Below, piece by piece: positions 6,983 to 58,028 of a stretch of DNA of 64,000 nt. A model generated the notes under the pieces. That model ran no database searches. It was given only the letters and a program-made list of their open reading frames with translations, and was not told where the DNA came from. Both the position numbers and the translations under genes were made by a program. Source of the stretch: Salvia splendens (Eukaryota > Streptophyta > Magnoliopsida > Lamiales > Lamiaceae); the NCBI RefSeq assembly GCF_004379255.2, contig NC_056037.1:33763012-33827011 (forward strand), read 5' to 3'. Within the stretch, counting starts at the first letter, position 1. The number at the start of each line of letters is the position of its first letter.

Positions 6983-8044
6983 ATGCAGGGCATGCCTGCA
7001 GCTGCGGGGAGCAGGCAGGGGGTCCCCCAATCACCTGGGGACAATGTCTATCGCCCCTACATGGATTTATTGTCTAGTGATTCCACCCAGAGTACTCATC
7101 TGGAGACTCAATTCACTGGCATTGAGACTTTCTCTTTTGAGGAGTTGGGGCTATCTCCGGTCAGGGAGTCTCCCACTGAGATGCCACCGGCGGCAGGGAG
7201 GACGCGGAAGCAAGGGAGAGGGAAGGGCAAGGGCCCTACCTCGTCCTCGCGTGCGGGGAACGAGGGTGAGGCGGGGCAGAGGAGGAGGGGGAGGAAGCCA
7301 GCGGGAGAAAGAGGACCATCTGGAGCATAGGGGAGTGAGTCGCGCTGGCGAAGGCCTGGATCAATGTAGTCGAGGATCCCTACGTCAGGGCTAACCAGCA
7401 TATCGACAGAATGTGGTGGCGCATTAGCCAAAGTTACCTCCAATTCAAACCGCCAGGTGGGAAGCCTCACGATGGAGAGCAATGTCGGAAACAATGGGAG
7501 CGGCTGAGGAGGCAGCTCAGCCTTTTTTCCGGCATCTACCAAAACAACCTCCGCACGTCAACCAGCGGCATGTCCGCTGATGATGTGAAGCTTCTGTCTC
7601 ACCAGCAGTTCCCCGACAGTGAATTGGGTTTCGGGGAATTCAAATATTGGGAGGACTATTTTGTGGTGGAGACTTCCGCCAAGTTTAGTTCGGGTGTTGA
7701 AGCTGGCTGGCCGAAGCGGACGAAGATCAACGCCTCCGGAGAGTACAACAGCAGTGCCGATTCCCACGAATTCACTGACGCCGAGGCAGAGTTCCCGAAC
7801 CCTCAATCGTCTTCCCGCCGTCGTCGTCCGGTTGAGCAAAAGACCGCGATGCGGATGGCTAAGGGAAGCGCCAGCGGGTCCCCCGAGGTCCAATCAGCAG
7901 CTCCTTCCCTGATCGATCCCGAGCTCTCCTCACTCGCCCGCATACAGCAGCATGAGACCCTGATACACACCATGGAGAAGTGGTATGTATCCCTTATACA
8001 AGTTGATGCTGAATGATGTCATCGACAGTATGCGGCGTGATTTA
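6983..8044 (+). pseudogene. Harbinger ORF1 (Myb/SANT- and NAM-associated-like), N-terminal and central part
   Basis: Recognisable pieces in order: a Ser/Thr-rich N-terminus (YRPYMDLLSSDSTQSTH, frame of 6920); a basic Gly/Lys/Arg linker; then, after a frame change and stops near 7330-7350, the SANT-like block LAKAWINVVEDPYVRANQHI and MWWRISQSYLQ; the central GEQCRKQWERLRRQLSLFSG; and a C-terminal region ending HETLIHTMEKWY. A further small indel near 7985 moves the frame to LYKLMLNDVIDSMRRDL, which runs straight into the target TTA of the inserted element. This architecture is that of the accessory DNA-binding ORF1 of plant PIF/Harbinger elements, often mis-annotated as host genes. Several frame breaks make it non-functional. 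Confidence 0.75.
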
Positions 8045-9936
8045 GGGCACCCGCAACGTGTTCCGCCGGCGTTCCGCGTGCCGTTCCGCCGGAACGGTTT
8101 CACCGCGAAACGCGTTGCGGCGCACCATTCCGTTCCCATTCCGTTCTGGGTGCCGACGGCACGGAAAGCGGCACGGCTTGTGCCGCCACGCGCTGGGGCG
8201 ACGTGGCGCTCCCCGCTTCGTGCGTGCATCCCACTCGCCGGCCCGCGAGTGGGACACATCAGCGATGACGCAATAATTAATTTTTTTTTAAATTGATTTT
8301 TTAAAAAAAAAATTTTTTTTTGTTAACGGTAATATTACCGTTTTTTAACTTTTTTTTAATTTTTTAATTTTTATTTTTATTTTCTTATTCTATAAATACA
8401 CCTAATTTATTACATTTCACACACAACTACACATCTACTCTTCCTAAACCAACATCAATTCCTCTCCAATTTTCTATTTCAATCTCCTTCACAAAATGTC
8501 CGGAGACGGGAATTACGGCGGTGGCGGCTCCGGTGGGTGGGATCTCAACGCGTTCGGCGATTAGGAGACCATGTACAACACACTTGGTGGTTCCGGGTCG
8601 TCGACGCCGGGCACCCAGGGGTCGGCGACGCCCGGTGGGTACCAACCACCCACTTTCGATGTGGATGCCTACGCTCGACCACCCGGCTCGCGGCTTTCTC
8701 AGGGTTTGTCCCAGATTCGGGAGGATATCCCCGTTGAACCCACCCAGGGAGGAAGCCGAGGCGGTGGAAGCTCTAGGGCTGCGTCTGAGGCACCCGAGGA
8801 GGAGGAGGAGGAGGAACTGGAGGATCTGGGCCGGCATCCGTACAACAACGAAGAAACTAAGGCGGTGTACACCGCCTGGCTCACCGTCTCGTACGATCCC
8901 ATCGTCGGGAACCAACAAGCCGGCAAGTGCTTCTGGGAAAAGGTCCGTGATGTCTACCACCAGACTAAGCCGAAAGGGGCCCGGAAGCGCAAATATACAA
9001 TGCTCCGTGCTCACTTTGGCCGAGTCGACGCACAGGTCAAAAAATTTTGCGGCATCTACTCGGCCGAAGCGGCGAACTACCAAAGCGGAGCTTCGGGCGC
9101 CGACATTCTGAGGGCGGCTTTGCGCGTCTTCTACCAGGACACCGGTCTACAGTTCAAATATGTTAATATTTGGCAGCTCGTCAAGGACGAGGAAAGGTGG
9201 GCCGGCGGTGTCCGCTCGAGCTCGGGCTCAACCTCAAAGTGCACGAAGCACACGGCGAGCGAGAACTACTCGTCTGGTGACACCGGTGAGGCCAGCGAGG
9301 GTGAACCGCAGGTGTTTGGGGGTACGGGGGATCCAACGCCCGACGAATACGGGGGATCCAGCCGTGGGCGCCGTCGGCCGCAAGGGACGAAGGCGGCTAG
9401 AGCGAGGAAGGGCCGAGGCGAATCAAGCCAGTCGGCCTCGGGATCGGGCTCGCGGGAGGCTCGGACACACTTATGGTGGCGTACATAACCGCCACAATGG
9501 CGGACACTTCCCACTTCTCGTACGCCTAATTCACGGCCTGGTGGAACGGAATTGTGCATATGGCAGGAATTCTTGGTCTTCCTCCTCCCCCTAAACCTCG
9601 ACCACCTCCGGAGGATGATTCGCCAGCGGAGTAGTTTTTTTATATTCCCACGTTTAATTGTGTGTTTTTATTTTTTTTAAGTTTAAGTTGAATTTTTTTT
9701 TAATGTTGTGTGTTTTTTAATAAAGTGTGTTTATTTTTTATTAAATTGTGTTTATTTAAATTGAATTGGGTTGAAAATAAAAAAAAATGAAATTGAATGA
9801 ATAGTAATTTAAGGAACGGTTAAGGAACGGAGGGTTGCAGGTTCCGTTCCTTAGTTAAGGAATGGAGTAAAAAAGTACAGTGGGGCCCTCAAATAGTGGT
9901 TTAAGGAACGGTATAGGAATAGCGTTGTGGATGGCC
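8045..9936 (+). mobile_element. PIF/Harbinger-type element with ORF1 only, TSD TTA, nested
   Basis: Ends are GGGCACCCGCAACG and, reverse-complemented, GGCCATCCACAACG. TTA duplications lie at 8042-8044 and 9937-9939. The GC-rich left subterminal region is followed by CTATAAATACACC (about 8390), a 5' leader, ORF1 (8496-9634) and an AT-rich 3' region. There is no room for, and no trace of, the DDE transposase ORF2. Removing the 1892-bp element and one TTA rejoins the reading frame of the surrounding older ORF1, which proves the insertion. Confidence 0.92.
8496..9634 (+). pseudogene. Harbinger ORF1 protein, nearly intact
   Basis: ATG at 8496 lies about 105 bp downstream of a TATA box. Order: Gly-rich start (SGDGNYGGGGSGGWDLNAFG); an in-frame TAG at about codon 23 where the sister copy at 17440 has Trp; a Ser/Gly/Pro linker; an acidic run EEEEEEELEDLG; then the SANT/trihelix-like region (NNEETKAVYTAWLTVSYD, QQAGKCFWEKVRDVYHQTKP, KKFCGIYSAE) and a Lys/Arg/Ser-rich tail. 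One frameshift near 9470 separates GSGSREARTH from LMVAYITATMADTS...; an in-frame stop follows SHFSYA before FTAWWNGIV. The end is PPPEDDSPAE-stop (9634). So two stops and one frameshift disable it. The expected role is DNA binding and import of transposase, from knowledge of the family. Confidence 0.8.
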
Positions 9937-11142: not shown

Positions 11143-11855
11143 TTAATTTGAAATTTGGACTTATACAATAAATTGGAACCAAACAATGGATAATTTAAAT
11201 TGAAATAAGACGAATAATGTGAAAATGATATCAATTTTATTGAATTTGAGTTGTAACGGACAACGATACATTACAATTTACAATACATATACAAGTATAC
11301 AACATACAACAATATAATATAATTTACAAGTGTAGTCGGAACGTAAATAAAAAACATGAAATGAGGGGGAAAATGGATGAATTTGAATTCAAAATTCGGA
11401 AAAAAAATTGAATTTTTGGAAAACCGGCGGTTTTGGCGGAAAACCGCCGGAACCGCCCGTTCGGTCAACAAACCGGCTGCCAAAAGCTGCGATATGTCGC
11501 CTCGGGTTCCGCACCACCACCAAAAGCCATCGGTTTACCGGTTAACCACCGGTTTTCGGTCTAAAAACTGCCGAAACCGGCCGGTTTCAACTCATGAGAA
11601 AGCTGCCTCGACTGACGCATTGGTTTCCGCGCCCGAACCGTGAAACCACCGGTTAACCGGTGGTTCCGAACCGTCCCGAACCCGAGGTTCAGAGACGGTT
11701 CCGGTTCGAAAATTCTTGAACCTGAACCAGACCGTGGTTCAAATTGCGACGATTCCGGTTCGAGGAAAATGCCACGGTTCTGGTTCGGAATCGGAACCGG
11801 CGGCGGTTCCGCTTTGCCGGTTAACCGCCGGAACCGGAACCGGTGGGCATCTCTA
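10936..11855. mobile_element. hAT-like non-autonomous element (920 bp), TSD TWTGTATC
   Basis: Ends are TAGTGTTGCCCAC and, reverse-complemented, TAGAGATGCCCAC. The flanks are TTTGTATC (10928-10935) and TATGTATC (11856-11863), matching at 7 of 8 bases. Both subterminal regions are crowded with GGAACCGG / CCGGTTCC / ACCGGCGG motifs in both orientations, giving strong foldback potential. The middle holds an ATT microsatellite and AT-rich filler. No transposase coding was found. Confidence 0.8.
11077..11143 (+). repeat. (ATT)n microsatellite
   Basis: About 22 uninterrupted ATT/TTA units inside the 10936-11855 element. Tyr/Leu-rich or Ile-rich frames over this stretch are artefacts of the repeat. 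Confidence 0.95.
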
Positions 11856-11934
11856 TATGTATCCACGGTCTACGCGTGTTTTACATTTCGCGTGTTTTAC
11901 ATTTCAACGGTAGGTATGAATATTGGAATTTTCA

Positions 11935-13493
11935 GAGCATCTCCAGTAAGACTGGACGTCAAATAGCCCTCACATAGCATTCACACTGCCACATCATCAG
12001 CACTACAATTCTCCTGCCACATCAGCTTGCCACATCAACTGGACATCAAATAGCCCTCACATAGCCTTCACACTACCTATCCACATCACTAATAACAATT
12101 ATATAATTTAATTTACAATCGTATCAACATACGGAATTTAATTTACGAGACAAATACGGGAAATTCGAATAATACTATTAAAATTTAAAAAGTACATTAA
12201 TTTAAAAAAAAGTACAATAATTTAAAAAAAAGTACAAAAATTAAAAAGTACAATTAAAAAAGTACAATATTTCTATATGGAAACATAAAACATTCAAGGA
12301 TGTCTCTATAAAAGAGAGACAACCTAGAATGATTTTTGTCCCACATCGAATGTGAAACATAAAACATTCAAGGATGTGTCTATAAAAGAGAGACAACCTA
12401 GAATGATTTTTGTCCCACATCGAATGTGGAACATAAAACATTCAAGGATGTCTCTATAAAAGAGAGACAACCTAGAATGATTTTTGTCCCACATCGAATG
12501 TGAAACATAAAACATTCAATGATGTCTCTATAAAAGAGAGACTACCTAGAGTGGTTTTTGTCCCACATCGAATGTGGAACATAAAATATTCAAGGATGTC
12601 TCTATAAAAGAGAGACAACCTAGAATGATTTTTGTCCCACATCGAATGTGAAACATAAAACATTCAAGGATGTCTCTATAAAAGAGAGACTACCTAGAGT
12701 GGTTTTTGTCCCACATCGAATGTGGAACATAAAACATTCAAGGATGTCTCTATAAAAGAGAGACAACCTATAATGATTTTTGTCCCACATCGAATGTGAA
12801 ACATAAAACATTCAAGGATGTCTCTATAAAAGAGAGACTACCTAGAGTGGTTTTTGTCCCACATCGAATGTGGAACATAAAACATTCAAGGATGTCTCTA
12901 TAAAAGAGAGACAACCTAGAATGATTTTTGTCCCACATCGAATGTGAAACATAAAACATTCAAGGATGTCCCTATAAAAGAGAGACTACCTAGAGTGGTT
13001 TTTGTCCCACATCGAATGTGGAACATAAAACATTCAAGGATGTCTCTATAAAAGAGAGACAACCTAGAATGATTTTTGTCCCACATCGAATGTGAAACGT
13101 AAAACATTTAAGGATGTCTCTATAAAAGAGAGACTACCTAGAGTGGTTTTTGTCCCACATCGAATGTGGAACATAAAACATTCAAGGATGTCTCGATAAA
13201 AGAGAGACAACCTAGAATGGTTTCATAATTCGCAAGCCCATTAAATATATATGGGCTATTACGAATTTCTTGTATAAATTTATTTGTAAAAATTGTTTTT
13301 AAATATTAAAAACAATTTTCATAAATAAATAGTATTTTTAAATTTTTTTTAAATTCGAATTAAAAAAAATTAAAAATTTGACGCCGGTTTGACGCTGATC
13401 CGGGGCCTACAATGGCGCTGTGAGGATCGGCGTCAGAACCGGCGTCGGCGAAAAATCGGCGTCGCGGTTTTGACGCCGGCATTGGAGATGCTC
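11935..13493. mobile_element. Harbinger-like non-autonomous element containing a 74-bp satellite, TSD TCA
   Basis: Left end GAGCATCTCCAGTAAG; right end, reverse-complemented, GAGCATCTCCAATGCC. The flanks are TCA at 11932-11934 and 13494-13496, a variant of the usual TWA. Subterminal sequence near the right end is rich in GACGCCGG/GGCGTC. A short internal duplication (TCAAATAGCCCTCACATAG at about 11958 and 12046) lies at the left. Most of the element's length is the tandem array described separately. No transposase is present. Confidence 0.75.
12281..13223 (+). repeat. 74-bp tandem array (148-bp dimers) of snRNA-promoter-like modules
   Basis: Twelve copies of GTCCCACATCG start at 12338, 12412, 12486 and every 74 bp to 13152, with no indel in the series. 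From the third copy, two unit types alternate: AACCTAGAATGATTTTT followed by ATGTGAAAC, and TACCTAGAGTGGTTTTT followed by ATGTGGAAC. This gives a 148-bp higher-order period. Each GTCCCACATCG fits the plant snRNA upstream sequence element (RTCCCACATCG). It is followed 32 bp later by TATAAAAG; the last copy is mutated to GATAAAAG. A T5 run precedes each element, and CCACAT-CGA-ATGTGG can form a hairpin. No snRNA body follows. The short minus-strand frames across it are repeat artefacts. Confidence 0.9.
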
Positions 13494-14283
13494 TCATTAG
13501 TGTCAGAAATTTTGAAGACCCTCTAATTTCTCGTGCTACTTTTGCACTCGCACAACTGGCCCAATCATCTAATTTACCGGGACCCTATACTTTATTTCAT
13601 ATTTCAACTATTATAGCCTTATTAATGAGAGAAAACACGGCGCTTTCAATATTAGTTCAATGAATTACTACAATGCACCATCATATGCTACATGTAGAAC
13701 CGTGAATAACAATAAAGAAGATAATAAATCAAAGAGGGAACATTTTTCTTTTGTGCAAACTTTGTTAATGTATTAATTTTTTTTTATCATTTGAAAATAT
13801 CATATAAGTTTCATCAACTTCAACGTAATATTATTTGATCTACTTTTTCACTTTTTCAAACTTTTTTTTAGCCAAAGCCAGTGGCGGATCTAGAATTTTT
13901 ATTTTAGGGGCATGGTAATATTATATCGATTGATGGCGCTTCATAATTATCTTTTATATTTACTTTAATATGTCATTTTTTTAGGTAAGAAAGATCACTA
14001 TTCAAAAAATGATAATAATTGGAAAATGATAAAATAAATAAATTAAAAGAAGTAAACTAACACTTTAAAAACTTTTATGCAGGACGAATAGAAAATATAA
14101 AAAATTAAATACATAAAGGAATTAAGCTTTATAAGAAAATAATGATAAGATACGAAAATTTATTATATTAATAGAATATTTTTAAAAAATTATAATAAAA
14201 GTTAGAGGTATTATATATTTTTAATGCATAAGAAAATTTATTATTTTTATGGAATATTTAAAAGAATTATAATAAAAAATTAA

Positions 14284-15901: not shown

Positions 15902-17910
15902 GGCCATCCACTACGCTGTCTCTATACCGTCCCTTAAATACTATTTGACCACTATTTGAGGGCCACACTGTCCTTTTTTTCTCCATCCCTTAACTAAGGG
16001 ACGGAACCTGCAACGCTCCGTCCCTTAACCGTCCCTTATTCCGTCCCTTAATTACTATTCATTCAATTTCATTTTGTATTTTTTTTCTCAACCCAAATTC
16101 AATAAAAAAAACACACTTTATTAAAAACACACTTTATTAAAAAACACACAACATAAAAAAAACACACAACATAATTTAAAATACAAATTTAAAGAAAAAT
16201 AAAAAAACTACTCCGCCGGGTAATCATCCTCCGGAGGCGGTCGAGGTTGAGGGGGAGTCGGAAGGCCAAGTTGTGCTGCCATATACACAATTCCGTTCCA
16301 CCAGGCCGTGAATTGGGCGTACGAGAAGCGGGAAGTGTCCGTCATTGTGGCGGTCATGTACGCCACCATAAGTGTGTCCGAGCCTCCCCGCGAGCCCGAT
16401 CCCGAGGCCGGCTGGCTTGATTCACCTCGGCCCTTCCTTGCTCTAGCCGCTATCGCCGCCTTCGTCCCTTGCGGCCGACGGCGCCCACTCGCGGATCCAG
16501 CCTCAGGTTGGCTGATGCCCTCAGCCAACCTTCGTCCCAGCATCGCCGACCGTACCCGCAAACTCCTGGGATTCAGGCTCAGGTTGGCTGATGCCCTCAG
16601 CGGTGTCACCACCAGACGAGTATTGGCCACTCGCCGTATGCTTCGTGCGCTTCGAGGTTGAGCCCGAGCTGGAGCGAAAACCACCGGCCCACCGTTCCTC
16701 GTCCTTGACGGCCTTCCAAACATCAACAAATCTGAATTGATGACGTTCGTCCTGGTAGCAGGCGCGCAAAGCGGACGTCAAAATGTCGGTTGCCGTTGCG
16801 CCGCTTTGGTAGCGCGCCTCTTCGGCCGAGTAGATGCCGCAGAATTTTTTGACCTGTCGGTTGACTCGGTCAAAGTGAGAGCGGAGCATTTTAAATTTGC
16901 GCTTGCGGGAGCCTTTCGGCTTTATCTGGTGGTAGACCTCGCAGACCTTTTCCCAGAAACACTTCCGAGATTGTTGATTCCCGACGATGGGGTCGTACGA
17001 GACGGTGATCCAGGCGTTGTACACCGCCAGCGTTTCGAGATTGTTGTACGGATGTCGGCCTAGATCCTCTTCCTCTTCCTCTTCTTCCTCTTCCTCCTCG
17101 TCCTCGCCCGCCTGGGGTTGTACACCGCCTCGGCCACCTCCACCGCCTCGGCCACCTCCACTGCCTCGGCCTACTCCCGGCGTGGGATCAACGGAAAAAT
17201 CCTCCCGGATCTGGGATAATCCCTGCGAATACCGCGGGGCGGAGGGACGAACATATGCATCAAGGTCAAAATTGGGTGGTTGGTACCCCCTGGCGTCGCC
17301 GAACCCTGGGTCCCCGGCGTTGACAAACCGGAACCGCCCAATGTGTTGATCATGGTCTCCCAATCGCCGAACGCGTTGAGATCCCACCCGCCGGAGCCGG
17401 CACCGCCGTAGTTGCCGTCGCTGTCGCCGTCGCCGGGCATCTTGAGTTGTTATATGAAAATTTGAGAGAAAATTTAGATGATAGGAAGAATAGATGTGTA
17501 GTTGTGTGTGAAATGAGGATGGGTTTAGGAGTATTTATAGAGTAAAAAAATTAATTAAAAATAAAAAAATTTAAAAAAACAAAAAAATGGTATTATTATT
17601 GTTACAAATTTTTTTTCTTTTATTTTTTCTTTTTTCTTTTATTTTTTATTTTATTTTTTTTTTAAATTCGAATTTTAAAAAAAAATATTTATTGCGTCAG
17701 CACGTGACGACGCCCACTCGCGGGCCGGCAAGTGGGCGTCACGCACGACGCCGGGTCGCGCCACGTCGCTTAGGCGCGTGGCGAGACAGCCCGTCTCGTG
17801 GCTCGACGGGACGCGACGCAGGACGGCGCGGGACGGGATGGCGAGCTGCAACGCGTCGCGCCGGGGTCCCGTCTCTCCGGGACGGGACGCGAGACACGTA
17901 GTGGATGGTC
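15902..17910 (-). mobile_element. PIF/Harbinger-type element with ORF1 only, TSD TAA, reverse orientation
   Basis: Ends GGCCATCCACTACG and, reverse-complemented, GACCATCCACTACG. TAA duplications lie at 15899-15901 and 17911-17913. It is in opposite orientation to the 8045-9936 element but shares its layout: GC-rich end (about 17700-17910), CTATAAATACTCC promoter string (about 17540), leader, ORF1 and AT-rich 3' part. No transposase ORF2 is present. It is nested in the 13879-17956 repeat. Confidence 0.92.
16208..17440 (-). pseudogene. Harbinger ORF1 protein, broken by two frameshifts
   Basis: ATG at 17440. The N-terminal frame reads GDGDSDGNYGGAGSGGWDLN, AFGDWETMINTLGGSG and then shifts near 17285. 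The central frame continues YQPPNFDLDAYVRP, a Gly/Arg linker, an acidic E-rich run (about 17065-17105), and the SANT/trihelix-like block (NNLETLAVYNAWITVSYD, QQSRKCFWEKVCEVYHQIKP, KKFCGIYSAEEARYQSG). It shifts again near 16530; the last frame reads RRRPQGTKAAIAARARKGRG, TAWWNGIVYMAAQLGL and stops after PPPEDDYPAE (16208). Colinear with 8496-9634 along its whole length; it keeps Trp where that copy has a stop. Confidence 0.82.
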
Positions 17911-20233: not shown

Positions 20234-20705
20234 GGGTTTTTTCTTTTTTAGTTCTAAAATAGAACTTAGATTCCGTGTTTGTACTGAACTTTTTTTTATT
20301 CCGGGTTTGGGATGCGTCTTCTTTTAATGAGACGCATGACGATTATGCGTCTTTCATAAAGACGCATGAGGGTCATGCGTCTCTTTTTTTTCATTTTTTT
20401 AACGACGCATGAGGGTCATGCGTCTTAGGTAGAGACGCATCTCCTTCATGCGTCTTTTAGTTTTTTAAAATTTTAATAGACGACGCATGAGGCTCATGCG
20501 TCTTAGGGAGAGACGCATGAGGCTTATGCGTCTCTAATTCGAATTAAATCAGATGAGGTAGAGACAGTAGCCTCATTCAGGCGCGACAGAAAGAGAGAGA
20601 CGAATTAGGCGATTTTTCATTGGCCTTTCCGGCGAATCTGACGATTTCCCTCGTATTTCGGTAAGTTTCCTTCAATCTTTCAACATTCCTCCCTTATTTA
20701 TTGTT
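20234..20705 (+). repeat. Left TIR of the MULE with six GACGCATG palindromes
   Basis: Matches the reverse complement of 24750-25247. It contains six palindromic units of the form GACGCATGAGGGTCATGCGTC (20330-20536, some degenerate). A shared leader segment follows, ending in a donor-like ATTTCGGTAAGTTTCC near 20655. That donor, paired with an acceptor near 21103, would splice the leader onto the PMD gene. Confidence 0.85.
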
Positions 20706-22019: not shown

Positions 22020-24619
22020 TGCTACCAACTGCTACATAACACGACCGACTGTGCAATTTCTACGGTCATGCCCCTATACGCCGCAATTCCTGCACTTGCG
22101 GGGAGCTCTCGGTTCATCTTCCTCGCGGACATCCATTTGATTAGGAATCCTCCTTGTTCTGCCTCGTCCGCGCTTTCGAGGAAGCAACTGCTCAGGGGTG
22201 ATACGCAATTTCCATCCAGGTTTTGCCCAATAGTTTTCGTGCCTTGGTGCTTGAAATGAGCTACCATAGTACTGTGCTTCCCATGTAGCTTTGTGGTTGT
22301 GTTTATCAATGAGTTCACACATAGAGTTACCTCTATCTCTGGCAACGGTGCATGCATGTAAACAAGGAACTCTCCACATCTGCCACTTCCCACAACTGCA
22401 CTTTGACTCCATAAACTCGACGTTTTGTCTGTTATTGCCCTTTACCTGTCCCTTTTCGACATGTGGACGACTTCGAATTTGGTAATGACCTAGTTCTCGG
22501 GCAAGTACTAAACAGTAATGCAGTTGCCCCTTCGCATCATTAGCAGCAAGTTTATCCCTTGCCCACGGGGTCAACCGACCTTCGGTATGTTGTATTTCTG
22601 TCTTTCTATCTGCCCAGCATTCCACTGTTCTCCAAAATGTCAGATCAACCAAAGCTCTAATTGGCAACTCTCTTATACCTCTCAACATGTTGTTGTAGCT
22701 CTCTGACATGTTAGTTGAGGGCACCCCCCATCTCAGTTCATCATCGTAACAAAGAGATCAGTTTTCTTTTTTGGCTTTGTTGAGCTCGTGTATCGCAACA
22801 AGACTTTCCTCCCGTAGTGCACGTCGCCTTCGCATGTATTTGCGTACTTGAGTTGTGACACCCAATGCCCATATCATGCCTTTCGCTTTAGCTCCCTTAC
22901 CCTTAAGTTTTGTCAAGATATTTTTCCTCACATGGATCAAACAAAATTTGTGGTGACATATCGACGGCTTTTTCCATTCATCAGAACGCATAGCCTTAAG
23001 GATTCCTTTATGCCTATCCGAAATAATGCACACATCCCTTTGGTATTTCACCTCTTGAATTCTGACATGATCCAAAAACCACTCCCAACTGTCGCCAGTT
23101 TCTTCATCAACAACAACATATGCAATAGGCAGACATTTCTTGTTAGCATCAACACCACAAGCAACAAGCAGCTTACCTTTAAATCTTCCTCGAAGGTGAG
23201 TCCCGTCTATTGTTAAAACTGGTTGGCACTCCTGGAAAGCATATATAGCAGGCCCAAGTGCCCAGAACACGTAATAGAAGACTTTAGTACGACCCTGGCT
23301 CAACAACTCATTATGCCTCCACTCAACGATTGTGCCTGGATTCCTATACTGCAGTTCAAGCATGTAGCTTGGCAAATCCCTAAATGACTCCTCCAATCCA
23401 CCAAATACAATCTCTAAAGCCCTTCTCCGTGCATACCAGCCTTCTTATAACTGATTACCACATGAAATTTGTCATGAACAAAATTTCTTACGGCTGCGGC
23501 ACTGAGCTCGGCATTTTTTAGCAACTGATGGTGAATACATAAAGCAATCATTGGTGATGAAAAGTTAGCATGTCCTCTATCATTACGATGGCCTTCACAA
23601 CTATGGCGTCCCCACCACTTCCTAATCTCCCACATATCATCATGGGCCATGTGTGTAACAGAAACTTCCCACCGACATTCATTCACTTTTTCAGTGTTGG
23701 TCTCGCTGATAATAGCTGTCCCATCTTCTGTCCGCCCTGCTGGATATTTGCACACGGCATGCCACCTTCTTAATTTGCTCTCAACCACCCTAAATTGCCG
23801 GTGTTGCCTCAGACTCCACATAGTAATAGCAGTCTTCACATGCAGCTTGCTATCAAATTTTGTTCCTGCATTAATCTGATATGGGTGTTCTTCATCCTAG
23901 TACATGGTACTGCGTTCATTACCAACTTCAGGTACCTCAGAAGGACCACTCGGCAGTCTGCGAAAATATTTCAACCCAGTGTGAACGTATTCTGGAAGTG
24001 GTTGTTCACCTTGCACGACGAGTTTATACACTACCTCCTCATCACTAGAGTCAGCACCGGAATCATCACTTAAAATATCATCAGACGATGATGACGACAA
24101 TGGTGGATCAAGGTCTCCTCGTACAACATAAACATCAGCATGCTCTTGTACAGTCTCTTGAGTATTCAATCCAACATCAGCAGCATCTGCAACATCTGTT
24201 TGCTCATTCATACCGCAATCAATGCTCATAGGTTCAAACCTCGTAGATGATCCAACACCATGCTCAACAATTGGTGGGATGAAGGCATTTCCAGCAGGCA
24301 AATACTCAATAAATAATTCTATATGCTGAGTAGAATTTAGAGCCGCATTGAACATAAACAACACACTTTCATCACTGTCAACCCCAGTACATACATAACT
24401 CGTACCGGTACCCAAGAAACAATGTCTCCATGATATATCGATGGAATGTTGATTTGAATCTATCCTTATCTTAGCATATATCATTGCAACTAATTCAGAG
24501 AATGAAACGCACGAATTCAATACGATGGAGGCTCTCGCACGAGGTGGATCATACCCAATGCCCACTTGAGGAAGTTGAACTATTCTACCACCCCAATATA
24601 AACTCACGAATACTAACAT
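22020..24619 (-). pseudogene. MuDR-type transposase (mudrA-like), decayed
   Basis: Minus strand, ATG at 24619 right after an acceptor. N-terminal part: YWGGRIVQLPQVGIGYD, then an acidic Ser-rich linker (SSSSSDDILSDDSGADSSDE). The MuDR DNA-binding-type region (FDSKLHVKTAITMWSLRQHR) follows an in-frame TAG near 23898. A one-base loss near 23432 breaks the frame before RRRALEIVFGGLEESF. The MULE catalytic domain follows: TIDGTHLRGRFKG, DSWEWFLDHV, ISDRHKGILKA and CHHKFCLIHVRKN. A TGA replaces Trp near 22760, then GVPSTNMSESYNNMLRG. The SWIM zinc finger (CSCGKWQMWRVPCLHACTV) and a Cys-rich zinc knuckle (CRNCGV-stop-GHDRRNC) close the protein. Three stops plus one frameshift make it inactive; the catalytic core is otherwise well preserved. 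Confidence 0.9.
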
Positions 24620-24749: not shown

Positions 24750-25247
24750 GAGCAATGTTGAAAGATTGAAGGAAACTTACCGAAATATGAAGGGAATCGC
24801 CAAGAAATCGAGGAAATCGCTGAGTTTTGTCTGCCTCTCTTTCTCTCGCGTATTCTGCCTATTCTTCCTTCATGCTACTGATTTAAGCAAGTTAGAGACG
24901 CATGGGCAACATGCGTCTCTCCCTAAGACGCATGAGCCTCATGCGTCGTCTATTAAAATTTTAAAAAAATAAAAGACGTATGAGGGAGATGCATCTCTAC
25001 CTAAGACGCATGACCCTCATGCGTCGTTAAAAAAATGAAAAAAAGAGAGACGCATGACCCTCATGCGTCTTTATGAAAGACGCATAATCGTCATGCGTCT
25101 CATTAAAAGGAGACGCATGAGGGTCATGCGTCTCATTAAAAGAAGACGCATGAGGGTCATGCGTCTCTCCCAAATCCGGAATAAAAAAAAGTTCAGTACA
25201 CTGAAGGAACGATATCTCTATTCTAGAACAAAAAAAAGAAAAAACCC
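24750..25247 (-). repeat. Right TIR of the MULE with eight GACGCATG palindromes
   Basis: Inverted copy of the left TIR. It has eight palindromic units (about 24894-25167), two more than the left side, added in the region next to the CCGGAATAAAAAAAAG motif. It carries the same ATTTCGGTAAGTTTCC donor on the minus strand (about 24770-24790), which would splice to the acceptor TTTTTGCAG at 24625 just before the transposase ATG. Confidence 0.85.
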
Positions 25248-42214: not shown

Positions 42215-45200
42215 ATGTCTACTGCGAAGTTTGATCTTGAAAAGTTCAATGGGAATAATGATTTTGGGCTATGGAGGGTCAAAATGAAGGCTGTGCTCAT
42301 GCAACAAAGCCTATGGGAGATCTTGAAGAAGGAAACGATCACTGAGGCAGAAAAGGCTGACCCCAAGCATCAAGATCAGCAAGATAAGGCTTATTCAACT
42401 TTGATTTTAAGCCTCAGTGATCGCGTGTTGAGAGAAATCTCTAAGGAAGAAACTGCAACTGGTGTATGGAAGAAGCTTGAGTCATTATACATGACTAAGT
42501 CCCTCTCCAACCGGCTCCTATTAAAGCAAAGGCTATTCACATTCAAATTCACCGAGTCAAGAGGCATTGGGGAGCAGCTTGAAGAGTTTACAAAATGCGT
42601 GGACGACTTGGAGAATATAGAAGAAGACCTCAAGGATGAAGACAAGGCCCTTATGTTGCTCAATGCGCTGCCTAAAAGTTTTGAGCAATTCAAGGATGCC
42701 ATTCTTCTTGGTAGGGATTCAAAGGTTATATATGAGGAGGTTCATTCGGCTCTCAAGTTGAAGGAGTTTCAGAAATCTGCAATGAAACCTTTAGATCCTG
42801 CATCACAAAGTTTGAATGTACGAGAGGAGTTCAAGAAGTCAGGGAAAAAGAAATTCCAGAAAGGGAATAAGACTTGGAAAGAGAAGGTTGGGGAAAAGAA
42901 GGAATCAAGATCTTGTTTCTACTGCAAGAAACCTGGGCACATCAAAAGGGACTGTTTTGCCTTCAAGAAGAAGCAGCAGGAGCAATCTGCTGGTCAGAAT
43001 ACGGCAGATATAATAGAAGAATTGCAGGCTGCAGAGGCATTAAACATAGTGGATGAAGACATCAGAGATGTATGGATCATGGACAGTGGCTGCAGTTTTC
43101 ATATGAGCTCTCATGTTGAATGGTTTGAGGGCTTGAAGAAATCTGATGGTATTGTTCTACTGGGAAATGACCAAGAATGCAGAATTGTAGGGATTGGAAG
43201 TGTCAGGCTGAGAATGGCAGATGGCTCCATCAAAATTCTATCTGATGTAAGGTACATTCCTCATATCAAGAGGAATTTAATATCATTGGGAGTGCTTGAG
43301 AAAAATGGTTGCTCTTTTGAGTCTTCAAATGGCCAGATGAAAGTCATCAAGAATGGAAAGGTGGTAATCACGGCTATAAGGAAAAGAAGCCTCTACTATC
43401 TACAAGCTCAAGTTCTAAATGGTGAAATCAATACAGTAGATAAAATAGACCTTGAGTTATGGCATCTCAGGCTGGGGCATGTGTCAGAGGATGCATTGAG
43501 AAAACTTGCTAAGAGGGGAGTTATACAAACTCAAGGATCTGCTGCTTTGAAGACTTGTGAAGAATGTATGCTGAGTAAGAGCAAGAAACAGCCTTATGGG
43601 ACAGGAAAGCACACATCAGAGAGGCCCCTAGACTATGCACATAGTGACATTTGGGGTCCATCACCAATTCCAACAGTTGGAGGATGCATGTACTTCTTGA
43701 GTTTTATAGATGATTTTTCCAGACGAATATGGATTTATGTTATTAAAGAGAAGTCAGATGCGTTTGGAAGATTCAGAGAATGGTGCATTGAGGTTGAGGT
43801 GGAGAAGGAGACACCATTGAGGTGTCTCAGAACAGATAATGGATTAGAGTTTCTTTCACATGAATTTGATACATTCTGCAAAATGAAGGGTATAAAGAGG
43901 CATAGAACCGTGCCTAATAATCCTCAACAGAACGGGGTTGCTGAGAGAGCCAACCGCACCATACTAGAGAGGGTAAGATGCATGCTGGCAGGCTCTGGTA
44001 TGGAGAAGAAGTTTTGGGGAGAAGCTGCTGCAACTGCAGTGTTCTTGATCAATAAGTGTCCATCATCAGCAATCAACATGGATACTCCAGATTTCAGATG
44101 GTATGGATCCCATGGTGATTACTCAAAGTTGAAACCATTCGGGTGCAAAGCATTCTCTCATGTTAGAAGAGGAAAACTGGAATCAAGAGCCATAATGTGT
44201 GCTATGCTGGGATATCAGAAAGGAGTGAAGGGCTATCGGTTGTGGTCAATGGAGCCAAGGAACAACAAGGTCATTATCAGTCGAGATGTGACTTTTAAAG
44301 AAAATGAGATGCCATACATTGAAAGAAAAAGGCATCAGCAAACAGAAAATGATGCTGTCACCTCAGTGGAGGTGGAGTTGTTTGATAAAGATGATAAAAA
44401 CTCTGATGAAGATTCTGGATTAAATGATGAATCTCGAGAAGGGTTGGATGAAGATGAAGACTCATCTGTGAATGAATTGGCAGATTACCAATTGGCCAGA
44501 GACAGGCAGAGGAGGAAAGTAACTCCGCCAGTCAGGTATAGCAATTCAAGTTTGGTTTATTATGCTCTCTGTGTGGCAGAAGGGATTGAGTGTTCAGAAC
44601 CAATGAGTTATAAGGAAGCCTTGAAAAGCAGTGAGAGAGCAAGATGGATGAAGGCAATGAAAGAAGAGACGGATTCTCTCATCAGAAACAAAACATGGAT
44701 TCTGGTAACTAGATCAAATCTGCAGACACTGATTGGATGTAAATGGATCTTCAAGAGGAAAATTGAGGCTGCTCTTGGAAATAAAGTGAGATACAAAGCT
44801 CGGCTTGTGGCTAAGGGGTATACACAGAAAGAGGGGATTGACTACAATGAGGTTTTTTCACCTGTAGTCAAACATAGTTCCATCAGAATACTCATGGCTG
44901 TGGTGTGTCACAATGATTGGGAGCTGCAACAAATGGATGTAAAAACGGCCTTTCTCCATGGTGAGTTGGAAGAGAGTATCTACATGGAGCAGCCAGAGGG
45001 GTTCATTGAACCAGGGAATGAAGATAAGGTGTGCCTCTTGAAGAGGAGTCTCTATGGACTCAAACAAAGTTCGAGGCAGTGGAATAAGAGATTTGATGAG
45101 CATATGATGAGCATTGGCTTTGATAAATCAGAATATGATAGCTGTGTTTATATGAAAAGAAAGAATGGAAGAACAGTAGCTTATCTACTCCTCTATGTAG

Positions 45201-46171
45201 ATGACATGCTCATAGCAGGGTCAGAAATTTCAGAGATTGAAGAAATAAAGGCAGATCTGAATCAGAGTTTTGAGATGAAAGATTTGGGCAATGCCAAGAG
45301 GATATTGGGAATGGACATTGTTAGGGACAGAAGAAAAGGAACATTGTGGTTGACTCAGCAAGACTACATCAGCAAGGTTCTGAAAAAATTCCAAATGACT
45401 GAATCAAGGACAGTCATGACTCCACTTGGTCCACACTTCAAGCTCAGTTCAGATCAAAAGCCTAACACTGATGAGGATAGGAAGGAAATGAGTAATGTGC
45501 CGTTTGCTAACATAGTGGGAAGTGTAATGTACACTATGGTGTGCACGAGACCTGACATAGCCCATGCCATAAGCTGTGTAAGCAGGTACATGTCTGATCC
45601 GGGAAAGACTCACTGGCAGGCCTTAAAGTGGATATTAAGGTACCTTAAGGGATCAGAGAATGTTGGGATATTGTACAAACGAAGGCATGATGCAACAAAG
45701 GAAGCAGCTATGGGGTTCTGCGATTCAGACTTTGCAACCAATTATGATAACAGAAAGTCACAGACAGGGTTTATATTTACTCTATATGATTCAGCTATAT
45801 CATGGAAGTCTGGTTTACAATCAGTGGTTGCCTTATCTACCAAGGAGGCAGAGTATATTGCACTTACTGAGGCTGTGAAGGAAAGCTTCTGGATTAAAGG
45901 GATTCTCAAGGATTTTGGCATCTCACAAAAGGCTATCACTGTGTACTGTGACAGTAGTAGTGCTATCAACCTAACTAAACATCAGGTATTCCATGAGAGG
46001 AGTAAACACATAGATGTTAGATTGCATTTTGTGAGAGATGAGGTGAATAAAGGGGAAGTCAAAATCAAGAAAGTGGGGACTGAGGATAACCCGGCAGATA
46101 TGCTCACCAAAGTGTTGCCTGTGTCCAAGTATGAGCATTGCTTGGAGCTGGTGTCTGTAATTCAAAGATGA
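42215..46171 (+). CDS. Copia Gag-Pol polyprotein, 1318 aa, intact
   Basis: A single open frame from ATG 42215. Domains in order: a Gag/UBN2-type N-terminus (FDLEKFNGNNDFGLWRVKMK); a zinc knuckle CFYCKKPGHIKRDC (about 234-247); an aspartic protease with the DSG motif in WIMDSGCSFHMSS (about 288-300); pre-integrase HLRLGHVSED (about 417); an integrase D-D-35-E core (SDIWGP about 475, RTDNGLEF about 540, NGVAERANRT about 575); reverse transcriptase with YVDDMLIAG (about 994); and copia RNase H with FCDSDFATNYDNRKSQTGF (about 1168) and STKEAEYIAL (about 1208). The end is PADMLTKVLPVSKYEHCLEL. The integrase-before-RT order defines Ty1/copia. The length is normal and no stop or frameshift is present, so all products for retrotransposition could be made. 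Confidence 0.97.
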   Translation: MSTAKFDLEKFNGNNDFGLWRVKMKAVLMQQSLWEILKKETITEAEKADPKHQDQQDKAYSTLILSLSDRVLREISKEETATGVWKKLESLYMTKSLSNRLLLKQRLFTFKFTESRGIGEQLEEFTKCVDDLENIEEDLKDEDKALMLLNALPKSFEQFKDAILLGRDSKVIYEEVHSALKLKEFQKSAMKPLDPASQSLNVREEFKKSGKKKFQKGNKTWKEKVGEKKESRSCFYCKKPGHIKRDCFAFKKKQQEQSAGQNTADIIEELQAAEALNIVDEDIRDVWIMDSGCSFHMSSHVEWFEGLKKSDGIVLLGNDQECRIVGIGSVRLRMADGSIKILSDVRYIPHIKRNLISLGVLEKNGCSFESSNGQMKVIKNGKVVITAIRKRSLYYLQAQVLNGEINTVDKIDLELWHLRLGHVSEDALRKLAKRGVIQTQGSAALKTCEECMLSKSKKQPYGTGKHTSERPLDYAHSDIWGPSPIPTVGGCMYFLSFIDDFSRRIWIYVIKEKSDAFGRFREWCIEVEVEKETPLRCLRTDNGLEFLSHEFDTFCKMKGIKRHRTVPNNPQQNGVAERANRTILERVRCMLAGSGMEKKFWGEAAATAVFLINKCPSSAINMDTPDFRWYGSHGDYSKLKPFGCKAFSHVRRGKLESRAIMCAMLGYQKGVKGYRLWSMEPRNNKVIISRDVTFKENEMPYIERKRHQQTENDAVTSVEVELFDKDDKNSDEDSGLNDESREGLDEDEDSSVNELADYQLARDRQRRKVTPPVRYSNSSLVYYALCVAEGIECSEPMSYKEALKSSERARWMKAMKEETDSLIRNKTWILVTRSNLQTLIGCKWIFKRKIEAALGNKVRYKARLVAKGYTQKEGIDYNEVFSPVVKHSSIRILMAVVCHNDWELQQMDVKTAFLHGELEESIYMEQPEGFIEPGNEDKVCLLKRSLYGLKQSSRQWNKRFDEHMMSIGFDKSEYDSCVYMKRKNGRTVAYLLLYVDDMLIAGSEISEIEEIKADLNQSFEMKDLGNAKRILGMDIVRDRRKGTLWLTQQDYISKVLKKFQMTESRTVMTPLGPHFKLSSDQKPNTDEDRKEMSNVPFANIVGSVMYTMVCTRPDIAHAISCVSRYMSDPGKTHWQALKWILRYLKGSENVGILYKRRHDATKEAAMGFCDSDFATNYDNRKSQTGFIFTLYDSAISWKSGLQSVVALSTKEAEYIALTEAVKESFWIKGILKDFGISQKAITVYCDSSSAINLTKHQVFHERSKHIDVRLHFVRDEVNKGEVKIKKVGTEDNPADMLTKVLPVSKYEHCLELVSVIQR

Positions 46172-54840: not shown

Positions 54841-57800
54841 GAGTGAAAACTGAAAAGGTAAGGTTTTGGCTCGATTTGAGGTAGCCGTATATCTCCAAAC
54901 TATCCCTTTTGTAAAGATTATTTTGTTGAATTTAAGTAGGGTTCAAAATTTGTGTAGTTAGCTTTTTGTTCTATTTAAATTTTTGTATTTGTATGGCATA
55001 AAATTGGAAAGTTTATAGAAAAATATTTATTTTACATATTGTTATTACCTACAATTCAGTGACTTAAGTTGACTTAAGTCACCCGGCTCATATTTTTAAA
55101 ATATTGTTTGATTGTGCATTAATACGAGTGTGGTAGTGGAATACAAGGGTCTCATTTTGACTTTTGGAAGTTGAAATCTTTTCAAATACTTATTCACACA
55201 AGATTAGATTGACATGATTATTTAGTATTGACATTTATTAGCATTAAAAAAATAAAACAAATGCATTTATTTTTTCTTGCCATAACTCTGATTTTTGTCC
55301 TTGTTTATTGTTATTTATTTTATTTTATATATTTAATTTGATTAGAATAAATGACATGATAATTTTACGCGAGACAGGGTTTGATCTTGCTATCGGTGCA
55401 AGCCCATTTGCCCGAGCTGAAGCCACCACCGTGTGACATGATAAAGGATAGCGCGCAATGTGTGGAAGCCAAAGGGTTGCAAGCCCTAACATTTTTCGTG
55501 GCTCTTTATTTGGTGGCGTTAGGGAGTGGGTGCGTTAAGCCTAACATGGTAGCTCATGGGGCTGACCAATTCAACCAAGCTGATCCAAAACAATCCAAGA
55601 AACTATCCTCATACTTCAATGCTATCTACTTTGCCTTCTCATTGGGCGAGCTCGTCGCTTTGACCCTTCTCGTTTACGTCCAAACTCACTCCGGCATGGA
55701 TATCGGCTTTGGTGTCTCGGCCGCCGCCATGGCCATGGGCCTAATCATCATCATTTCCGGCACGCTTCTCTATCGAAACAAGCCTCCCCAGGGAAGCGTA
55801 TTGACACCTATTGCACAGGTTAGAGTTTTTTTTTCAATCACTTTTTTCCTATTATAAATGTGCCATTTCGAGATATACACTATTAATATTAAATAGTAGA
55901 CTATTAATTATTTTGTTCTAATTATAATTACAATTTTTAGTAAATGAACCATACATATCACTAATTCAGTGCACATGTTAATTAGAGTTGTTTCTCATTT
56001 ATTTCACACGGCACAATACTATATAGTCCCATAAGCCCATAACTTAGTCCCAAAGAGCGTGAGCGAATGAAATAAATATGGAGCGACTTTAAATTTTTGA
56101 GCCAATTATACTCAATCAAGCAAACGTAGTACTTACTACCTTTTGAATCTTAGTCAACTTCTTTAGCTGTCTCCTCTAGGATTATTATATGTTATTCATC
56201 AAATTGTCTGTAACATGCATGTGTTTGTCTCTGATGATTATGAATGTATTCTTGTTTTCATTAGCTGATCAAGATTAAATTATCCTCCAACTCTCCGTTA
56301 TAGAAAAAGAAAAATATTAAATAAATAATAATCGAATAGCATTAGTTCCACTTGATGCAGGTGCTCTGATTAGCCATTCATATGTGTCGAATTATAATAC
56401 TCCATTAATTCAGCTATGTCGGAATTTGGAATCTAGCTTCCACCTAATTAAAATACATCTACACACATAAGCATTTTTATTTATTGAGTAATTAAACATT
56501 ATAAATTGTAGGTACCTGATGCCTCTAAATTTTTAATCTTACCGGGTCAATTTTATTTAAATTACTTGCACATCGAAGTTTTGTTTAGATTAATGTTTTA
56601 CGAATTTCCCTTTTTTCTTAATTTTGTTTTAGGTGATTGTGGCTGCAACTCGAAATAGAAAGCAAGTGTGCACATCTGACAACACCATATCCGACAGTTT
56701 TCCCAATAGTCAACCCACCCTAAGATTCAGGTAATTTAACTATTTCCACTTTCCATTGTGCATAGTTTTTTTTTTAAAAAAATCAAAGTTGGCATGATTC
56801 ATGATAATAATAATACCTATTTCTTCAATTAGACAAAATACACCCTAAAACTAGTGTAAATTGTAAAAAATAAAAAATAAAAAAATTGGTCAATTCCCAC
56901 AAGTTCAAAAAATCAGTCGGAAAGTCATAAAGTTTGAATATGTTCGCAAGAGAAAAAATCTAGTCACTCATACGATATATTGTTAATGGTTTTCAACTAA
57001 ATAGCAATATTTTCTTTGTAAACGTAGATAATATGGTTTCGACTAAGCCGTTTACGTATGATTTCTCAGTTGTCATATAGCATCAGCTAAAATTTCATAA
57101 TAGATCCAAATTTATAGTTTTTCCTAGTGATTTTAAAGTCGTTTGATTAAACTTTATAATATTTCCAAAAATTTTCCCAATATAGTGATTCGCATGCAAC
57201 TAAACCCTAAAACAAAATAATAAAAAAAATGTCAGATTCTTGAACAAGGCATGCATCAAGAAAGAGGAAGAAAGTGAAGAAGAGAGCAGTAAATGGAGAG
57301 TATGCAGCGTGAAGCAAGTGGAGCAAGTGAAAACACTGATATCAGTGGTTCCAATCCTATGCTGCACAATCATGTTCAACACCATCCTCGCCCAGCTCCA
57401 GACCTTCTCCGTCCAGCAAGGAGCCGCCATGAACACCCGCCTCATTAAATCCTTCCACATCCCCCCGGCCTCCCTCCAGGCCATCCCCTACCTCATCCTC
57501 ATCTTCGCCGTCCCCCTCTACGACGCCGCCGCCCCCCGCTCCATCACCCCCCTCCGCCGCCTCGGTGCAGGCCTCCTCCTCTCCACCTTCTCCATGGTCG
57601 CCGCCGCCCTCGTCGAGCGCAGGAGAAGGGATAGTAGTAATGCCGCTGTGCTGTCGATATGGTGGATTGCGCCGCAGTTTGTGATATTTGGGGTGTCGGA
57701 GATGCTGACGGCGGTGGGGCTGGTGGAGTTCTTCTACAAGCAGCCGCTCGAGGGGATGCGGGCGTCGCTCACCGCGGTCACCTACTGCTCCTACTCGTTC

Positions 57801-58028
57801 GGGTTCTTTTTGAGCTCGGGGCTGGTGTCGGTCGTGGACGGGGTCACGGGGTGGCTCAGTGATAATGATCTTGATAAGGATCGGTTGGATCTGTTTTATT
57901 GGCTGTTGGCGGTGCTTAGCTTTCTTAATTTTCTTAACTATCTGTTTTGGGCTAACTGGTATTCCAGTGGCGTTATTAGAGTTGGTGGTGATGGTGATAT
58001 TGATATTGATAGTGATAGTGTTGTGTGA
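54372..58028 (+). CDS. NPF4: NRT1/PTR family (NPF4-type) transporter, complete five-exon gene
   Basis: A proton-coupled MFS transporter of the plasma membrane or tonoplast; NPF4 members carry nitrate, abscisic acid or other hormones. Inferred exons: 54372-54504, 54578-54795, 55378-55818, 56633-56730, 57236-58028, all with GT-AG borders. They total 1683 bp (560 aa), normal for NPF. Key segments: LDWRGKPSNPQKHGGMRAAA; LQGFEIMAIAAVGNNLITYV (helix 1); FIGTLFILSLLGGFLSDSYL; the PTR signature region LVALGSGCVKPNMVAHGADQ FNQ; SSYFNAIYFAFSLGELVAL; LLYRNKPPQGSVLTPIAQ; LAQLQTFSVQQGAAMN; and FFYKQPLEGMRASLTAVTYC. The ExxE(K/R) helix-1 motif of proton-coupled nitrate transporters is replaced by FEIMAI, as in other NPF4 members. 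The C-terminus ends in an Asp/Gly/Val tail. The ATG at 54372 is chosen; an upstream in-frame GTG is ignored. The substrate cannot be told from sequence. Confidence 0.93.

Follow-up and report, generated by a model that had tools for sequence, protein, structure and literature searches.

A transposon-borne tandem array of modules with the layout of a U2-type snRNA promoter in Salvia splendens

The array of 74-bp units described here lies in a 64-kb stretch of Salvia splendens DNA, the whole of which was analysed and is referred to below as the window. In our opinion, the array is best explained as a multiplied U2-type (Pol II) snRNA promoter cassette that was spread by transposons, an explanation to which we assign a probability of roughly 0.55. 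It should be noted that its parts differ in strength. As a description of anatomy, a U2-type, transposon-borne and tandemly multiplied cassette is well supported; activity as a working promoter is plausible, judging from the sequence.

Array architecture and the snRNA promoters of the same genome

A motif search of the whole window found 12 mismatch-free copies of GTCCCACATCG from 12338 to 13162 at a constant step of 74 bp (USE starts at 12338, 12412 and so on to 13152), with no further mismatch-free copy anywhere else in the window; all 12 array units match the USE consensus RTCCCACATCG exactly. TRF reports a single array at 12280–13223, with a period of 74, 12.8 copies and 0% indels. The principal features are as follows.

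12280–13223, + strand: array of 74-bp units, 12 full and one partial (TRF and unit comparison)
12338–12348, + strand: first of 12 USE copies, GTCCCACATCG, recurring each 74 bp (motif search)
13152–13162, + strand: last of the 12 USE copies (motif search)
12381–12388, + strand: TATAAAAG, 32 bp past the first USE, recurring each 74 bp (motif search)
13195–13202, + strand: last TATA position, here GATAAAAG (motif search)
13227–13229, + strand: expected +1 of the last module, 32–34 bp past the TATA start (inferred by applying the U2 TATA-to-+1 distance to 13195)

A first-pass annotation, made from the sequence alone, had described twelve USE copies exactly 74 bp apart without indels, each preceded by a T5 run and followed 32 bp later by a TATA box. 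The spacing of the copies is borne out, and TTTTT stands ahead of all 12. The 32-bp gap from the end of the USE to the TATA box likewise holds in 12/12 modules; the box sequence itself, TATAAAAG, is present in 11/12, the final USE being followed by GATAAAAG at 13195, with a first base, G, that occurs in this column in 1/372 units. An extra TATAAAAG lies at 12307, in the partial first unit, which has no USE. The same annotation saw two alternating unit types forming 148-bp dimers. Neighbouring units are identical at a mean of 69.5/74 positions and units at lag 2 at 72.5/74. The alternation is seen in the window from about the third unit on, and the dimers stand as a local feature. Strict two-type alternation was rejected as a family trait, many other unit orders being found across the 40 arrays introduced below.

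According to the passages of PMC9845283 drawn on here, plant Pol II snRNA promoters combine the USE RTCCCACATCG with a TATA box about four helical turns away. As a yardstick from the same species, we took the upstream sequences of 14 of at least 46 U2 matches and of 12 of at least 48 U6 matches. A USE with no more than two mismatches is present in 13/14 U2 upstreams, at −75 to −79, and the exact 10-mer TCCCACATCG in 7/14. The gap between USE and TATA is 32–36 bp in 12/14; the exceptions are L093, which has no USE, and L091, whose TATAAG was missed by the pattern and by eye lies 34 bp on. The U2 +1 falls 32–34 bp past the TATA start. The array sequence TCCCACATCGAATGT recurs in 3/14 U2 promoters, two of these three being identical upstreams (those of L097 and L103 are identical to each other). 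The U6 upstreams carry the USE at −65 in 9/12, with gaps to the TATA box of 24, 24, 26 and 26 bp in the 4 of these 9 in which the TATA pattern caught the box. Thus, the 32-bp gap of the array lies inside the U2 range, as against 24–26 bp in U6, and this places the array in the U2 (Pol II) class. Comparison with the species' own snRNA promoters had been proposed as a check on a Pol II snRNA-type layout; U2 agrees and the U6 gaps are shorter. The reading would have suffered had the snRNA genes of the species lacked this USE, and they carry it in the proportions given. The U2 matches themselves are clustered: 33 of the 46 (a lower bound) sit on one contig, C11, including 20 at C11:11430758–11500079, all on the minus strand, and 10 at C11:10438842–10459528, all on the plus strand.

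The first-pass annotation had also stated that no snRNA body accompanies the array. In support, the whole window gave 0 Rfam matches at gathering score, which applies equally to the array unit as a described microRNA family; 75 matches at a relaxed threshold, all under their gathering scores, were taken as chance. The statement nevertheless has to be qualified, since a conserved two-hairpin segment starts at the expected +1.

13227–13267, + strand: hairpin a, after the array (folding, z −6.9 for both hairpins together; by eye, 33/37 aligned elements span both)
13278–13330, + strand: hairpin b, A/T-rich (folding; same 33/37 aligned elements)
13335–13350, + strand: T5 and T8 runs past hairpin b (sequence)

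Among the aligned elements, L041 and L055 are without most of this stretch, and L046 and L064 are without its end. For 12/13 TATA boxes, all but the last, the position +32 lies within the next USE; because the inner +1 positions are thus occupied, the last module alone is left with a free start site, and its expected +1 (13227–13229) coincides with the start of hairpin a (13227). If the array does work as a promoter, a SNAPc-like factor and TBP would bind the modules and Pol II could start there; transcription would begin at hairpin a from the last module, with the upstream modules mainly loading factors. It should be noted that in the window the only module with a free start site is the one with the mutated TATA (GATAAAAG), and for this reason the working-promoter reading is weaker for the window copy.

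The enclosing MITE, its family and other carriers

The array was originally placed within a Harbinger-like MITE. Terminal inverted repeats (TIRs) and a 3-bp target-site duplication (TSD) uphold this, and delimit an element that is larger than had been described: a 1,559-bp non-autonomous Harbinger-like MITE at 11935–13493 with the TSD TCA.

11932–11934, no strand: left target-site duplication TCA (TIR/TSD comparison)
11935–13493, + strand: non-autonomous Harbinger-like MITE, 1,559 bp (TIRs GAGCATCTCCA / TGGAGATGCTC, 3-bp TSD; its parts flank the arrays examined)
11935–11945, + strand: left terminal inverted repeat GAGCATCTCCA (TIR/TSD comparison)
11951–12005, + strand: subterminal 55-bp repeat, copy 1 (85% match to copy 2)
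12038–12091, + strand: subterminal 55-bp repeat, copy 2 (85% match to copy 1)
13483–13493, − strand: right terminal inverted repeat (TIR/TSD comparison)
13494–13496, no strand: right target-site duplication TCA (TIR/TSD comparison)

A genome search for the unit, which had been suggested as a test, was carried out in the 806-Mb Salvia splendens assembly (1,162 contigs). The dimer query gave 369 first-look candidates, the best 40 of which, after scoring and manual grouping, are 40 arrays in the same MITE family, the window's included. These best 40 were chosen by top score and are therefore biased to close relatives, and all of them carry the array because the array served as query. The 5' part of the MITE was matched at 40/40 loci and the 3' part at 39/40 (not L063). 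TIRs of the GAGCATCTCCA type, with no more than two substitutions, are present at both ends in 37/40 (not L052, L057 and L063), and 34 of these 37 elements have identical 3-bp TSDs: 31 TTA/TAA, 2 TCA (the window among them) and 1 TGA. Common flanks suggest that the pairs L031/L038 and L036/L063 each arose by duplication of an insertion. Each array among the best 40 of the 369 candidates contains 4–19 exact USE cores, and block duplications of units are seen, for example in L060; unequal exchange or slippage would account for such shifts in unit number. Across the 37 elements, the median pairwise divergence (5' part, 2.9%; 3' part, 4.1%) indicates that the family is young.

The module is not tied to this MITE alone, as had been assumed. 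By eye, L065 is a second Harbinger-type MITE with the unit and a similar hairpin sequence (ends GACCATCCACTACGC / GAGCATCCACTACGC, TSD TTA), and L066/L070 represent a hAT-like element, again with the unit and a similar hairpin sequence; it has TAGGCATGCACA termini and an 8-bp repeat, CGTGTATT. L117 (C1:12218700–12221000), also judged by eye, is a hAT-like foldback with outward-facing USE–TATA modules and hairpins in both arms, and L061 is a sister array of 73-bp units without the two hairpins. When the hAT-like stretch served as query, 1,790 first-look candidates were obtained; of the best 40 scored, 39, the query being set aside, are 94–97% identical. The hAT-like copies (20 and L066) contain two tandem units, of which a is strongly diverged and b is near the MITE unit. 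The simplest history, in which the direction is inferred, is that cassette b together with the hairpins moved from hAT-like elements into MITEs and was multiplied there; it would then have spread by transposition and by recombination of one element with another, the probable direction being from hAT-like elements to MITEs. A CCGG-rich stretch of the window at 11400–11855, about 80 bp short of the MITE, resembles by eye the termini of cassette-bearing hAT-like elements.

Genome-wide, there are 4,430 exact USE–TATA modules with a gap of 20–40 bp (2,293 + 2,137), a count that covers intact modules alone. Gaps of 20–28 bp account for 56 of them, gaps of 33–40 bp for 640 and, by subtraction, gaps of 29–32 bp for 3,734. 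Among the 100 matches listed, all from the first 15 Mb of C1, the gap is 32 bp in 89, 33 in one, 34 in nine and 37 in one; the gap-34 form repeats in 75-bp units. The same 100 include six outward-facing pairs of clusters, about 1–2 kb apart, of which L117 was examined closely. Inspection by eye assigns 43 of the 56 modules with short gaps to one other sequence, mostly with a gap of 24. The gap-24 module family of L118/L119, four copies of which stand within 0.9 kb in L118, is probably LTR-like, since the module in L119 is followed by TGGTATCAGA, which we take to be a primer-site-like sequence.

Several other elements were observed in the window. A pair of related, oppositely oriented Harbinger-like elements with GGCCATCCACTACG-type ends lies at 15902–17910 and at about 8190–9936; their ORFs of 288 and 305 aa look SANT/Myb-like to us but match nothing in Pfam. 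The window ORFs at 7411–8016, 8571–9488 and 16521–17387 gave 0 Pfam matches. Pieces of a MULE transposase at 22074–23396 are flanked by tandem repeats at 20312–20535 and 24896–25167 (TRF; AGACGCATGA / ATGCGTCT palindromes), a 1,318-aa ORF at 42215–46171 looks Copia-like to us, and a PTR2-family transporter gene, several named relatives of which are called NPF4.3, has exons at 55381–58028.

Conservation of the core and competing explanations

If the USE and TATA box were under constraint, they might be expected to vary less than the rest of the unit, and the absence of such a difference was named beforehand as an argument against the promoter reading. Within young copies the difference is indeed absent. 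In the MITE family (373 units from 40 loci, 7 of the units coming from neighbouring elements in L061, L065 and L066), USE and TATA columns show 2.0 events per column and the rest 1.98, and 40/73 phase shifts of the core do as well as the real one. Among 21 hAT-like copies, core divergence is 0.044 against 0.032 for the rest, about one third of the core value being due to a single C/T position (0.43) at the CG of unit b. Extra conservation of USE and TATA in young copies was thus rejected in both families. Between strongly diverged modules, on the other hand, the core is better kept. The fairer test is the pair a–b, since a is fixed by its tandem place beside b: 16/19 core positions are identical, as compared with 26/55 of the rest (p 0.0045). 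Comparisons with module c are biased because c was located by a USE scan; they give 18/19 against 27/56 for a–c (p 0.0002), 17/19 against 32/57 for b–c (p 0.0068) and 17/19 against 28/58 for c–W (p 0.0012). The pair a–W gives 16/19 against 25/56 (p 0.0025), and b–W, at 19/19 against 46/55 (p 0.058), is not significant. It should be noted that these comparisons are mutually non-independent.

These results bear directly on the possibility that the array is an inert passenger, whose unit derives from a USE- and TATA-bearing transposon promoter and which is now a functionless minisatellite that grows and shrinks. We regard this as a real possibility, although not as the favoured one: the lack of extra core conservation within young families, the variable unit number with its block duplications and the mutated last TATA of the window all agree with it, but the a–b comparison does not, and the amplified gap classes, 32 and 34 among the intact modules counted, both lie within the native U2 range of 32–36. 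Another explanation makes the hairpin, as a small-RNA precursor or cruciform, the reason for which the unit was kept. The hairpin that the first-pass annotation had noticed in each unit does exist, with a folding energy of −26 kcal/mol (z −6.2) for one unit and a z of −7.65 for the dimer. Moreover, the unit is imperfectly palindromic about two dyads half a period apart, one within the USE and the other within the TATA loop, which are 76% and 74% complementary, as compared with at most 62% in 500 shuffles; and 4/7 changes that separate the MITE unit from hAT-like b create pairs, none breaking one (null p 5e-5), the direction of the changes resting on L061, L065 and hAT b as outgroups. Covariation, however, is nearly absent and lends the hairpin almost no support as a reason for motif conservation: among 109 distinct units of this young family (at most six pair types shown per pair), we found one two-sided pair-keeping change, T-A for C-G at columns 11/25, in which A is a common allele anyway. 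Common stem variants at columns 25, 42, 46 and 65 break pairs (A to G at column 73 keeps T-G), and the replacement of A by T at unit position 14 also makes the unit more like some U2 promoters (TCGAATGT). Retention as a hairpin is, in our opinion, unlikely.

Tandem sites within transposons are a familiar theme, and on these general grounds the units might be binding sites for a transposase or a SANT-like partner that favour mobility. We consider this very improbable. The array starts 345 bp from the left end and is not subterminal, and the module is carried as well by hAT-like elements with unrelated termini, all of which one transposase would hardly serve; the occurrence of the array in all 40 members is no evidence for a role in mobility, because the array was the query. 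A chance likeness to an snRNA promoter is extremely improbable. The motif and the family were picked after the sequence was seen, which favours chance to some extent and makes the simulation that follows a guide without strict probability: after reduction of the array to two USE copies and one intact module, none of 150 order-1 windows of the same dinucleotide make-up contained a USE–TATA module, and TCCCACATCG alone averaged 0.1 per window. A reversed-pattern control in the same genome found 0 modules, as against 4,430, and the agreement of the gap with that of this genome's own U2 genes speaks strongly against chance.

Significance and relation to known systems

The snRNA promoters are usually viewed as a property of the host snRNA genes. 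This genome holds thousands of exact U2-type modules, and those examined are located in transposons, often tandemly multiplied. A bolder version of the cassette explanation is that several transposon families took over host U2-type snRNA transcription, that the arrays, which in the hAT-like elements face outward, make a short two-hairpin RNA from the element, and that 4,430 exact modules, set against at least 46 U2 and at least 48 U6 matches, act as a SNAPc sink; we consider it doubtful. If even a fraction of the modules were active, they would form a hidden and large source of small-RNA transcription, and SNAPc would be under load from them. With their 4–19 units, the arrays examined provide a natural dose series in which to ask if tandem USE–TATA modules reinforce or block each other. 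In the portions consulted of the literature on USE and snRNA promoters with transposons, and on MITEs with internal tandem repeats, such arrays are undescribed, which is weak evidence, as most subscription journals lie outside the survey.

The nearest counterparts are the plant U2-type (Pol II) snRNA promoters, which, in the passages of PMC9845283 cited above, share the USE and a TATA box about four helical turns away; the array differs from them in being tandem, in lying in transposons, in having no snRNA body and in that its inner starts overlap the next USE. The MIRNA loci of Cuscuta campestris are USE-driven and reportedly show features of Pol III transcription (PMC10226582, a commentary). 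They resemble the present case in that an snRNA-type USE stands ahead of hairpin RNAs, and differ in those Pol III features and in that the commentary mentions no transposon arrays, whereas here the spacing is that of Pol II and the RNA is putative. Mobile elements with central or internal tandem repeats are likewise known, such as the DNA transposons Tnat1/Tnat2 of Arabidopsis (PMC10794571) and Tetris of Drosophila virilis (PMC4079207), although the sections of these two papers considered here do not present the repeats as promoter modules. Within the same genome, the LTR-like family of L118/L119 also carries GTCCCACATCG and TATAAAAG in a transposon; there, however, the spacer is unrelated to that of the array, and the gap is mostly 24 bp, as in U6, in contrast to 32 bp in the array.
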